From the NCBI RefSeq assembly GCF_900215205.1, contig NZ_OBDY01000001.1:988786-1052785 (forward strand): 64,000 nt of DNA, written 5' to 3'. Below, piece by piece: positions 41,836 to 49,229 of this stretch. The notes beneath the pieces are model-generated. The model was not told the origin of the DNA and ran no database searches. It saw only the letters and a list, made by a program, of their open reading frames with translations. Source of the stretch: Paractinoplanes atraurantiacus. Lineage in GTDB: Bacteria; Actinomycetota; Actinomycetes; Mycobacteriales; Micromonosporaceae. Each line of letters begins with the position of its first letter. The stretch's first letter is position 1. The position numbers and the translations under genes were made by a program.

Positions 41836-42004
41836 CGCTCCACCCTTCTCCGTGGCACCGCACTGGCCCCGATCAGCGCCCTGGACGCCGGTGTCACCGC
41901 TCTACCTCGCTCCGCAGCCGCGGGCGGGCGCCATCGGCACCCGCGGTGGAAGCCGCCGCCCACCTCGCCCGGCAGTCACCAGCCGACATCGCCGGCGAGC
42001 GTCC

Positions 42005-42215
42005 GCGTGTCGAGCCCTTGTGGTTGCGCCCGTGTCGAGCCCTTGCGGTTGCGCCCGTGTCGAGCCCTTGCGGTTGCGCCCGTGTCGAGCCCTTGTGGTT
42101 GCGCCCGCGTCGAGTCCTTTCGGCTCCGCCCGCCTTGAGCTCGCGGCTCCGCCCACCTTGAGCCCTTTCGGTTGCTGCTGCGTCGAGCAGTTGAGGGCTC
42201 CGTCCGCCTTGAGCC
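42005..42215. repeat. 25-bp tandem array, about eight units
   Basis: This is the first half of a 678-base gap between TetR and the hydrolase. The unit is CGTGTCGAGCCCTTG plus YGGTTGCGCC. Units start their GAG at 42011, 42036, 42061, 42086, 42111 and 42136, all exactly 25 apart, then decay (42159, 42184, 42210). Because 25 is not a multiple of 3, no frame keeps a repeated peptide, so it is not a coding array. No gene is credible in bases 41836-42470; one minus-strand frame starts at 42461 behind AAGGTGAGG but reads low-complexity sequence. Confidence 0.85.
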
Positions 42216-42319
42216 CGCACCCCTCGCCGGTCCGGCTGCTCCGGCGCTTTGCCCCGGTTTGGTCGTCCGTCGGGTTCGTGGGTCCAGCTGCTCTGTCGGT
42301 TCGCCCGATTTGGTCGCCC

Positions 42320-42455
42320 CTCCCGGCCCGCCGTCTGGTCGTCCCGCACGGCCCGCCGGTCTGGTCGCCCCCGCACGGCCCGCCGGTCTGGCCGTTTCGC
42401 ACGGCCCGCAGGTCTGGTCGCCCCTTCCGATTCGCCGGTTCGGCCGTGTCGAGCC
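42320..42455. repeat. Degenerate 24-27-bp array
   Basis: Units resembling CGCACGGCCCGCCGGTCTGG occur at about 42323, 42347, 42374 and 42400, with irregular spacing. The array ends with the motif CGTGTCGAGCCCTT of the neighbouring 25-bp array at 42446. The two arrays appear to be one expanded stretch that has diverged. Confidence 0.65.
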
Positions 42456-42470
42456 CTTCATGGCCTCACC

Positions 42471-42503
42471 TTAGCAGTGCTAAATTTTCCTTAGCGGTGA
42501 TAA
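42471..42503. promoter_or_regulatory. Twin TTAGC-type operators before the hydrolase gene
   Basis: TTAGCAGTGCTAA (42471-42483) is a palindrome with a single central base, and TTAGCGGTGATAA (42491-42503) is a degraded copy 20 bases on. The second reaches into the AAGGAGG ribosome-binding site. This spacing (two helical turns) suits two TetR dimers on one face of the DNA. Confidence 0.6.
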
Positions 42504-42513
42504 GGAGGCAACG

Positions 42514-43359
42514 GTGAAGGTTGATGAAGGGCAAGGTCGCCCGATCCTCGTGTTGCACGGTGGGATGGGCAATCTCGGCAGTTGGGCGAGGGTGACCGAC
42601 CGACTGCACGATCGGTTCCGCACGGTGCGGCTGCATCGCCGGCAGTACCGGCTGGAGGTGCCGAGGAAGGTGACGATCGCCGACGAGGTGGCCGAGGTGC
42701 GGGAGGCGGCCGCGGCGCTCATCGGCCCGGGGGCGGGCCCGGCGGCGGGGGAAGGGTCCGCGTGCGCGGGGCCGGTGCCGGGGAGTGCGGCGGATGGGCG
42801 GGCAGTGCTGGGAAGTGTGGCGGATCGGCGGCCGGTGCTTGTAGGGCACTCATCGGGGGCGGTTGTGGCGTTGGAAGCGCTTGTGGCGGATCCAGGGCTC
42901 TACTCGGCGGCGGTGCTCTATGAGCCGCCGATCGTGGTGGATGAAGTGCTGAGTCTTGGGGTGGCGCCTCGTGCCCGGGCGGCGCTCGAAGCCGGGCGGG
43001 CGGGGACGGCGTTTGCGATTTTTCTTCGGGACGTGGCTCGGATGCGGTCGCCGATGGTGGGGGTGGCCGAGTTCGTCATGAACCGGAAAGGGGCGGAGAT
43101 GGGGCCGCTCGTCGAACGTCAATGGGATGACGGGGAGGCCATCGATGCGCTTGGCAACCGGCTGGCGGCGTACGGGCAAATCGCAGTGCCGGTCTTGTTG
43201 TTGGGCGGAAGCCGCAGCCCTCGGCATCTGATCGATCGGCTGGACGCGCTCGAGGGAGTGCTGCCGAACGGGACGCGGATGACCATGCGGGGGCTGGGGC
43301 ATACCGCCGAGCGCACGGCGCCCGGGCGAGTGGCGGCGGCCGTTTCGGGCTTCCTCTGA
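42514..43359 (+). CDS. Alpha/beta-hydrolase with a duplicated insert
   Basis: A 281-residue protein. The oxyanion region is ILVLHGGMGNL, the nucleophile elbow is LVGHSSGAVVALEAL, and the catalytic His is in MRGLGHTAERT. Between the second and third strands of the fold (residues about 72-108) is an Ala/Gly-rich insert containing the decapeptides GSAADGRAVL and GSVADRRPVL, encoded by a 30-bp tandem duplication. The GTG start has a perfect AAGGAGG 5 bases before it. Likely repressed through the two TTAGC palindromes. Confidence 0.85.
   Translation: MKVDEGQGRPILVLHGGMGNLGSWARVTDRLHDRFRTVRLHRRQYRLEVPRKVTIADEVAEVREAAAALIGPGAGPAAGEGSACAGPVPGSAADGRAVLGSVADRRPVLVGHSSGAVVALEALVADPGLYSAAVLYEPPIVVDEVLSLGVAPRARAALEAGRAGTAFAIFLRDVARMRSPMVGVAEFVMNRKGAEMGPLVERQWDDGEAIDALGNRLAAYGQIAVPVLLLGGSRSPRHLIDRLDALEGVLPNGTRMTMRGLGHTAERTAPGRVAAAVSGFL
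42781..42840 (+). repeat. 30-bp tandem duplication inside the hydrolase gene
   Basis: Two adjacent 30-base copies (42781-42810 and 42811-42840) begin GGGAGTGCGGCGGATGGGCG and GGAAGTGTGGCGGATCGGCG. They differ at a handful of sites and keep the frame, adding ten residues near the nucleophile elbow. Confidence 0.8.
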
Positions 43360-43369
43360 GGGATACCCG

Positions 43370-47960: not shown

Positions 47961-48379
47961 GCCCGGGCCGGTGGTGGGGTCTGCGGGTGGAACGGGAGGC
48001 GGCCGGCGGGCGGCAGCGGCGGCATGCCCTGCTGCTGGCGCAGGCGGCCACGGCGGTAGCGGCCCAGGAAGAAGACGTTGCAGAAGTGCAGGACCCCGAG
48101 CACGAGCAGCACCAGCCCGATCTTCATCGAGAGGGTCTCGAGCGCCTCGCTGGTGTCCGCGATCGTGTCTCCCGACCGCATCGTCACGGTGACGTATCCC
48201 AGATTCAGCAGGTAGAAGCCCATCACCAGCAACTGGTTGACCGCCTTGGCCAGCTTCGCGTCGGCGAAGACGTCGGCCAGGAAGACGAGCCCGTTGCGGG
48301 AGAGCGTGGTCGCCACCCAGACCGTCAGACCCACGCTGACCGCCAGGTAAACGAGGTACATCCACACCTTCGGGTCCAT
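47957..48379 (-). CDS. Four-helix membrane protein, first gene of the DUF393-TetR operon
   Basis: A 140-residue protein with about three to four hydrophobic segments (VWMYLVYLAVSVGLTVWVA, QLLVMGFYLLNLGYVTV, IGLVLLVLGVLHFCNVFFLG) and a basic, Pro-rich C-terminal tail. I do not recognise a named family. AAGGTGG precedes the ATG at 48379. DUF393 proteins and small membrane proteins often sit together, so a membrane-located thiol step is an inference. Confidence 0.75.
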   Translation of the reverse strand: MDPKVWMYLVYLAVSVGLTVWVATTLSRNGLVFLADVFADAKLAKAVNQLLVMGFYLLNLGYVTVTMRSGDTIADTSEALETLSMKIGLVLLVLGVLHFCNVFFLGRYRRGRLRQQQGMPPLPPAGRLPFHPQTPPPARA

Positions 48380-48392
48380 CGGACCACCTTTC

Positions 48393-48447
48393 TCGAACGC
48401 GTTCAACTAACTCGCCTCAGCGTAGACCCAAACTTGAACATGTTCAA
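48393..48447 (-). promoter_or_regulatory. Twin GTTCAA-type palindromes at the operon promoter
   Basis: TTGAACATGTTCAA (48434-48447) is a perfect 14-base palindrome and TCGAACGCGTTCAA (48393-48406) is its close copy. On the minus strand TTGAAC of the first, 17 bases, then TACGCT, fits a -35/-10 pair. The TetR encoded last in the operon is the obvious candidate to bind both sites and close a feedback loop. Confidence 0.6.
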
Positions 48448-48570
48448 CAAGGGGTGTGGGGCGCCGGAGAGGGGCGTTGGGGGAAGCCGCAGTCGCGGAG
48501 GACGGCGTTGGCGAGGGCGGGCGGCGGCGAAGAAGCGGCGACGAAAGCGGCCCGGCGACCAAGGGGCGCG

Positions 48571-48698
48571 CGGCGGCGAGGGCACGCGGCGGCGAGGGCA
48601 CGCGGCGGCGAGGGCACGCGGCGGCGAGGGCACGCGGCGGCGAGAGCACGCGGCGGCGAGAGAGCGCGGCGGCGAGAGGGCGCGGCGGTGAAGGGGTG
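48571..48698. repeat. 16-bp tandem array, eight units
   Basis: The unit CGGCGGCGAGGGCACG occurs four times almost perfectly from 48571, then four variants follow to 48698. The G-rich strand (GGCGGCGAGGG) could form quadruplexes. The gap 48448-49229 holds this array, the 14-bp array and low-complexity G-rich DNA; I see no credible gene in it. Open frames on both strands exist only because stops are rare in such composition. Confidence 0.85.
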
Positions 48699-48860
48699 CG
48701 GCGACGGGGACGCGGCGGCGAAGAGGGGCCAGCGGCGAAGGGCGGCCGGCGGTGAAAGCGGACGGCGGAGGAGGGGTGGTGTCAAGAAGTGCAGCGAAGA
48801 GAGTGCGTCGACAAAGGAGGTGCGGCGGTAGAGAAGGGAACAGCGGCGGAGGGGGCGCCA

Positions 48861-48916
48861 GCGAAAGTGGGGCGGCGAAAGTGGGGCGGCGAAAGTGGGG
48901 CGGCGAAAGTGGGGCG
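48861..48916. repeat. 14-bp tandem array, four units
   Basis: GCGAAAGTGGGGCG is repeated perfectly at 48861, 48875, 48889 and 48903. The surrounding 150 bases (48741-49100) contain degenerate relatives. Period 14 excludes a coding origin. Confidence 0.85.
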
Positions 48917-49229
48917 GTGCGAAGAGCGGCAGCAAGAGGGTGCGGCGATTAAGGAGATGCGGCGGTGGAGAGGGGTGCAGCAGCGAAAGGGGGTGGCAGC
49001 GAAAGCGGGGCGGCAGGTAGCGGTGGTGAAGGAGGAGTGGTGGCGGTGTCGGGATGGGGGTAGGCCGCGGGGAGAGTGAGCCGGCGGGGAGGGTGGTGAT
49101 GTGCCTGCGGGTCTGGTCGGAGGGGGTGGGAGCTGCCATGATCGCTCGGGGTCGATCGGCGGGGGGAGTTGTCGACGCGCCGGGACCGTTACGCTGCGCC
49201 TACCCGTTCGCTGGGTGCCGGTAATCTAA

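Follow-up and report, generated by a model that had tools for sequence, protein, structure and literature searches.

A dense cluster of species-private tandem arrays in Paractinoplanes atraurantiacus and its place in a likely genus-wide turnover of arrays

Results

Within a stretch of 64,000 nucleotides of Paractinoplanes atraurantiacus (contig NZ_OBDY01000001.1, positions 988,786 to 1,052,785; hereafter the window) we analysed a cluster of tandem repeat arrays, defined as calls of Tandem Repeats Finder (TRF) with a score of at least 80, after merging of calls. Nine such arrays lie in 42006-48948, both inside genes and in gaps, and domains were assigned by Pfam search. A TetR gene (41230-41835, minus strand) and an alpha/beta hydrolase gene (42514-43359, plus strand) diverge from a spacer that holds a 25-bp array of five to seven copies (42006..42188) and a 53/26-bp array (42311..42424), the unit of which is unlike that of its 25-bp neighbour. 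The hydrolase gene itself carries a 30-bp in-frame array (42770..42839, plus strand), which falls within its Abhydrolase_6 domain match. In the CopA-type ATPase gene (43395-45797, plus strand) a 36-bp in-frame array (44986..45174, plus strand) occupies about residues 531-594, between the E1-E2 domain (residues 224-402) and the HAD stretch (residues 614-706). A second TetR gene (46103 to about 47029, its start being taken at 47029; minus strand) has an 18-bp in-frame array (46819..46920, minus strand) in its N-terminal tail, at about residues 37-70 and hence ahead of TetR_N, which spans residues 100-143 of 308. The DCC1-like gene (47010-47960, minus strand) has in-frame arrays in both tails, one of 24/48/72 bp at the N terminus (47513..47777, minus strand; about residues 62-149) and one of 24 bp at the C terminus (47106..47187, minus strand; about residues 258-285), on either side of a DCC1-like domain that spans residues 155-250 of 316. 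It is joined through an ATGA overlap to a small gene (47957-48406, minus strand) which is recognized from its sequence and its conservation in relatives, serves as our synteny anchor, has no Pfam match and looks by eye like a membrane protein gene. The divergent spacer between this small gene and the ROK gene (49262-50452, plus strand) contains a 16/32-bp array (48510..48761) and a 14-bp array of 4.1 perfect copies (48861..48948), followed by a weaker 16-17-bp run reaching 49016. No strand is given to the arrays in gaps.

An earlier note on this DNA had listed periods of 14, 16, 18, 24, 25, 30 and 36 bp, all of which TRF recovered in 42006-49016, and had stated that the coding arrays are always multiples of 3, which is true of every gene-borne array of the cluster (30, 36, 18, 24 and 24/72 bp). 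The match between copies ranges from 76 to 100% across the arrays, so that they are probably of different ages and are unlikely to stem from a single event.

The cluster lies on a 1.39-Mb contig (C33) of a 10.9-Mb genome (G000), of which 1.1 Mb of C33 was sampled. This sample contains 137 arrays, which cover 20.8 kb or 1.9% of the bases and amount to 12.5 per 100 kb; 108 of them score at least 100 and the median copy match is 84%. The G+C content of arrays is 0.77. Another 14 arrays were found in 140 kb of a second contig. A single dinucleotide resampling of the 1.1 Mb yielded no array at the same threshold, and chance is therefore no explanation. The earlier note had placed similar arrays elsewhere in the window only at 59.8-60.3 kb, where we find an 18/25-bp array (59752..59886) and an 18/36/54-bp array (60212..60326), both without strand and of the same genome-wide class; this was too narrow, as further arrays lie at 32579-32788 and 57120-57212 and along the contig as a whole. 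The cluster is nevertheless the top 7-kb stretch of the 1.1 Mb, both by array length (1345 bp, against a 99th percentile of 789) and by number (nine arrays, against at most five anywhere else). Array pairs less than 1 kb apart are in excess (58, compared with 25 under a null matched for coding and non-coding class), but once arrays less than 1.5 kb apart are merged no excess clustering is seen (27 pairs within 7 kb, compared with 41.5 under the null). Neighbouring gaps of the same species show no significant tendency to carry arrays together (P=0.07 and 0.09), and regional co-activation was rejected on this ground.

To place the cluster within the genus, relatives were taken from Actinoplanes and Paractinoplanes, one genome per species. 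The cluster locus was compared with 27 relatives' loci (19 named and eight shorter ones), and four further regions (valS, dinG, tldD and ispD), picked because G000 has array clusters there, were taken from 20 congeners, giving 80 stretches, two of them short. These stretches contain 165 arrays in 1575 kb, or 10.5 per 100 kb, and the region orthologous to the cluster has 7.9 per 100 kb in the 19 named relatives, which is not above average. Within a species, the number of arrays in one region does not correlate with that in another (P>0.1 for each of 10 region pairs). For this reason, and because totals over the four regions had a variance/mean ratio of 1.5, a species-level mutator was rejected. 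Regions that are clusters in G000 have roughly average array numbers in relatives, and so no regional hot spot is conserved, nor does any species stand out clearly as a mutator. Nine actinobacterial outgroup loci gave 4 arrays in 91 kb, a sample too small for ranking genera. Loss of mismatch repair peculiar to this genome was likewise rejected, NucS_C being present in 34 of 35 genomes including G000; the match to the NucS (EndoMS) C-terminal domain in this genome lies inside the window, at 10924-11286 (G000:C33:999709-1000071). MutS_I was found in none of 12 genomes including G000, with 11 of 14 controls positive, and loops of 14-72 nt would lie outside the MutS range in any case. NucS is reported, in the part of the source consulted, not to correct indels (PMC8228993), and given this indel blindness the genus may be without loop repair.

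The arrays themselves are private to species. Within the reach of the 27 relatives' loci, none of the cluster array sequences has a match at its own site (E<=1e-3), the lone match being 22 bp of the hydrolase array in a locus that ends short of the hydrolase (L018); all 27 loci match both the TetR core and the small gene, and 17 of the 27 match the CopA core, which bounds the coverage there. The arrays are thus not stable and identical in distant species, the finding that the earlier note had named as one that would count against its proposal. Paractinoplanes deccanensis (L037), the closest of four relatives compared with 88% identity over 10 kb, is without window 41229-45798; it aligns around the arrays of the DCC1-like and TetR N-terminal tails, where it has 143 and 15 bp compared with 434 and 184 bp here. 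Its contig begins, at L037 1-83, within a 14-bp array that immediately precedes the small conserved gene, and repeats may break assemblies.

Privacy of sequence goes together with recurrence of site. Six relatives have arrays of their own in the DCC1-like or TetR tails (L051, L053, L028, L029, L046 and L037; this comparison used the correct DCC frame), most others being short-tailed. CopA, readable in 17 of the 19 named loci, has one loop extended by unlike repeats here and in L052; a TVRL motif in the first loop is common to L036, L039 and L046, and the second loop is extended by differing repeats in L045 and L048. The tail beside tldD bears arrays in 11 of 15 genomes, and at the valS 3' end differing arrays lie, as judged by eye, between the stop codon and a hairpin-like sequence (L126, L131, L133, L136 and L141). 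Over 95 orthologous gaps in the 20 congeners (1134 instances, 76 with arrays) the recurrence of arrays gave a chi-square of 265, compared with a mean of 87 and a maximum of 209 in 2000 trials of a length-based null. At the two strongest recurrent sites the periods are mostly multiples of 3 (14/16 and 11/14), for which reason these sites look like coding tails. In the gap-recurrence counts, as in the spacer coordinates, the junction counts and one row of the codon comparison given below, the DCC anchor was one base out of frame, which affects the adjoining gaps only.

Gaps with arrays are longer than their orthologues. In 72 array-bearing gaps the median excess over the median of array-free orthologues was 177 bp, which surpasses the array bp by 21 bp, and the excess reached at least half of the array length in 63 of the 72; as the difference is about the length of the array, arrays have been gained as added length. 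They are also seldom shared: the partner region has a match to the array in 5/17 comparisons at 92-94% identity (one species pair), in 2/20 at 90-92% and in 8/47 at 88-90%. At 78-84% identity the share levels off at about 5%, which includes fortuitous similarity between G+C-rich repeats. Close partners were compared in 76 cases; in 53 of these the partner was free of an array at the site, and in 14 of the 53 it retained a recognizable single copy (z>=4), so that a local progenitor is seen in a minority only. In a further genome (G003) a 65-bp unit includes the conserved end of the upstream gene, a local origin judged by eye (z 3.8).

Coding and gap classes were assigned with a home-made gene caller over 3.05 Mb. 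The caller overlooks some genes, including the hydrolase and DCC1-like genes of the cluster, and arrays with periods that are not multiples of three (non-3n) were therefore taken as a proxy for non-coding arrays. The filter on reading frame that the earlier note had seen is genuine and of general reach: the period is a multiple of three in 117 of the 120 arrays within called genes, compared with 9 of 39 in convergent gaps. Non-3n arrays are densest in convergent gaps (7.35 per 10 kb), followed by codirectional (2.27) and divergent gaps (0.42); the corresponding values are 7.15, 1.58 and 0.92 in C33 alone (convergent compared with divergent, P=0.002) and 12.7, 3.9 and 0.24 in the 80 stretches of relatives, which are not independent of one another. 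The trend is the same but not significant in two small sets (P=0.36 and 0.14). A count of intact junctions by orthology, taking all arrays together, agrees, with arrays in 16/159 convergent, 35/630 codirectional and 4/230 divergent gaps. In codirectional gaps, 22 of 26 frame-breaking arrays of relatives (P=0.0005) and 7 of 9 of the own genome (P=0.18) lie closer to the stop codon of the upstream gene.

Two features of the neighbourhood bear on why arrays adjoin here. On the ROK side, 17 of the 19 named relatives carry in the gap a gene matching a 478-aa protein of L040 with a Glyco_hydro_3 domain; of the remaining two, the L037 contig ends in that gap and L038 is without such a GH3-like gene. 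Among the eight shorter loci, four show part of the gene, L028 has a 30-residue remnant and three have none. As the GH3-like gene has no match in window 40001-52000 and its best match in the genome is only 52% identical and on another contig, its orthologue is missing here. The spacer left on this side (48407-49261) is 855 bp long and its arrays span 507 bp, compared with a sum of about 353 bp for the L040 spacers that flank the GH3-like gene. Secondly, the TetR/hydrolase spacer measures 678 bp here compared with 39-94 bp between homology ends in eight of nine named relatives, the ninth (L040) giving partial matches only. The hydrolase is 49-62% identical to its eight relatives, which are 54-85% identical among themselves, and its G+C and T fractions at third codon positions (GC3 and T3) are 0.80 and 0.13, compared with a GC3 of 0.89-0.95 in seven relatives; the low identity and lower GC3 suggest that the gene is under relaxed constraint.

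Discussion

Arrays in this genus are gained, are private to species, recur at the same sites and follow a pattern of reading frames and 3' ends. We propose, with a probability of roughly 0.7, that the cluster is the densest stretch, within the 1.1 Mb sampled, of a genus-wide population of fast-changing arrays which are likely born by slippage and are likely kept where frames, domains and promoters are spared. Arrays would be born by slippage or template switching on resident sequence and would afterwards gain and lose units, and selection would act as a filter, removing those that break frames, folds or promoters. The neighbourhood may stand out because permissive sites happen to adjoin in it, namely a spacer missing a gene that relatives have, a widened spacer, two protein tails, a CopA loop and a fast-evolving hydrolase. 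According to this proposal, arrays likely form by local copying errors and disappear fast throughout the genomes of these species, and not at one special hot spot.

Several findings weigh against this proposal. Nine arrays in 7 kb remain unusual when placement is matched for coding and non-coding class (P=0.03 in 5000 trials; 0.0002 under uniform placement), and some local excess at the cluster is possible. No progenitor copy was recognized in 39 of the 53 comparisons, among the 14 progenitor cases one array is counted twice, once for each of two partners, and in seven the array has about two copies only, and local birth is thus shown for few arrays. At the second-strongest recurrent site some species have one unit in common, so that the recurrences are not all independent. 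Both gaps of the cluster that hold arrays are divergent, counter to the general rule. Scars of gene loss were rejected as a general driver, 4 of 77 gene-loss-type junctions having arrays compared with 55 of 1019 intact ones; because gene-loss junctions are not richer in arrays, the missing gene explains the ROK spacer only after the fact, and this account is local and not a law. Finally, a Kitasatospora locus has 2 arrays in 6 kb and a locus of a Myxococcales metagenome-assembled genome (L060) has 3 arrays in 10.8 kb, and the trait may thus extend beyond the genus. The latter locus raises the possibility that large G+C-rich genomes other than those of Actinoplanes carry such arrays as well.

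One alternative is that termination zones generate the non-coding arrays, polymerase pausing or R-loops past the stop codon provoking slippage, with promoters spared for want of such a trigger and not through removal of arrays by selection. Per base, convergent gaps hold about 17 times as many frame-breaking arrays as divergent ones (about 8 times in C33 alone), these arrays tend to lie near stop codons, as in the 22 of 26 cases in relatives, and those at the valS site lie by eye between the stop codon and the hairpin-like sequence. However, constraint on promoters predicts the same pattern, convergent and codirectional gaps differ just about twofold per 3' end, the divergent position of the cluster's own gap arrays does not fit, and the coding arrays are left unexplained. 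We regard this explanation as unlikely. The same doubt applies to its stronger form, in which the zone from stop codon to terminator would be a standing birthplace of arrays in Actinoplanes and termination would make species-specific repeats at fixed orthologous sites.

A further alternative is a physical hot spot, in which a local property of the 7 kb, such as pausing, R-loops, quadruplexes or breaks, creates tandem duplications in all that lies nearby; the earlier note had suggested that a local property (replication pausing, recombination, quadruplex-forming DNA or strong transcription) or a local process of tandem duplication may be at work. The number of arrays in the cluster, with the P values given above, speaks for it, as nine arrays in 7 kb are still unusual. 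A local property as such is unsupported: arrays more than 1.5 kb apart are not clustered, neighbouring gaps do not co-occur significantly, the orthologous region in relatives is of ordinary density, and the spread of copy matches makes a single event unlikely. A similar density throughout the genome, which the note had taken as decisive against its own proposal, is largely what we find, with 12.5 arrays per 100 kb on the contig and 10.5 in the 20 congeners. Of 207 arrays, 15 contain a quadruplex motif, compared with 3.7 in random stretches, which is above random and yet a small minority, and with 192 of 207 arrays having no such motif, quadruplex-forming DNA was rejected as the general cause. 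GC skew was also rejected, as the skew of arrays is twice that of random stretches, as short-unit repetition would produce. We therefore consider a physical hot spot to be improbable.

Bacterial variable-number tandem repeats (VNTRs) can switch genes by changes in copy number, and arrays between the TetR and hydrolase genes and upstream of the ROK gene would be suitably placed for contingency loci, that is, arrays kept for on/off switching. This seems very improbable: 117 of 120 coding arrays are in frame, which rules out frame switching for almost all of them, divergent gaps are the rarest class for frame-breaking arrays, and no array of the cluster was found conserved. Dispersed or mobile units inserted in many places can be practically dismissed. 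Off-site matches within the 1.1 Mb exist for 26 of the 137 arrays, with best identities of 69-85%. In the whole genome the 48.5-49.0 kb block yields another 27 matches with E<=0.01, at identities of 70-91% and with 3e-15 as the lowest E (40 of 284 candidates were scored), and the 42.0-42.4 kb block yields one (E 1.5e-5). However, the other 111 arrays, including all nine of the cluster, have no off-site match in the 1.1 Mb, and the whole-genome matches are partial and compositional in look.

The MIRU-VNTR loci of mycobacteria are likewise tandem arrays that an actinobacterial chromosome carries in both genes and gaps, the mycobacterial interspersed repetitive units (MIRUs) being dispersed copies of a related unit. 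The units described here differ in being mostly unrelated, as the 111 of 137 arrays without an off-site match in the 1.1 Mb and the weak partial genome-wide matches of one block show. Phase-variation loci differ as well, since frame-breaking repeats inside reading frames are scarce here (3 of 120 coding arrays are non-3n). Among the open-access papers that literature searches listed, titles and the openings of abstracts gave no report of such a pattern in Actinoplanes. The closest parallels are the repeats of Borg elements in behaviour (Schoelmerich et al. 2023; PMC9879509) and bacterial satellites in kind (Subirana and Messeguer 2019; PMC6749651). The consulted part of the Borg paper describes frequent arrays in genes and gaps, with units divisible by three in genes and in 14-38% of cases in gaps, rarely conserved between near relatives, and four kinds of repeat inside one 7-kb region of two related Borgs (PMC9879509). 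The arrays described here resemble them in that gene units are multiples of three and gap units are unfiltered (117/120 in genes compared with 9/39 in convergent gaps) and in being seldom shared with near relatives. However, the Borg repeats counted in that paper are perfect, whereas Actinoplanes arrays are mostly imperfect with a median match of 84%, and they are A-rich and found on linear archaeal extrachromosomal elements, whereas those studied here are 77% G+C and chromosomal. Under the Borg definition of perfect units, at least 50 nt and at least three units, we count 20 in 1.1 Mb compared with an average of 46 per 829 kb in Borgs (PMC9879509). Bacterial satellites, as covered by the part of the source at hand, are alike in being mostly short arrays, many in genes coding for amino-acid repeats, with periods predominantly multiples of three, and in Clostridium difficile unrelated arrays are clustered in two regions; they differ in that most species have few, 18 bacteria exceeding 4 per Mb with another program, and in that orthologous sites are not compared in that part (PMC6749651). 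By analogy, the Actinoplanes pattern can be described as a bacterial, chromosomal and G+C-rich counterpart of Borg repeats.

If our proposal is correct, a whole genus gains and loses minisatellites so fast that species at 91-93% identity share few of them. The genus would then offer a natural comparative system for the birth of tandem repeats and for the independent lengthening of tails and loops at the same points, as in CopA, the TetR regulator and the DCC1-like protein. In addition, the arrays would provide strain markers, and they may perhaps explain some contig breaks.

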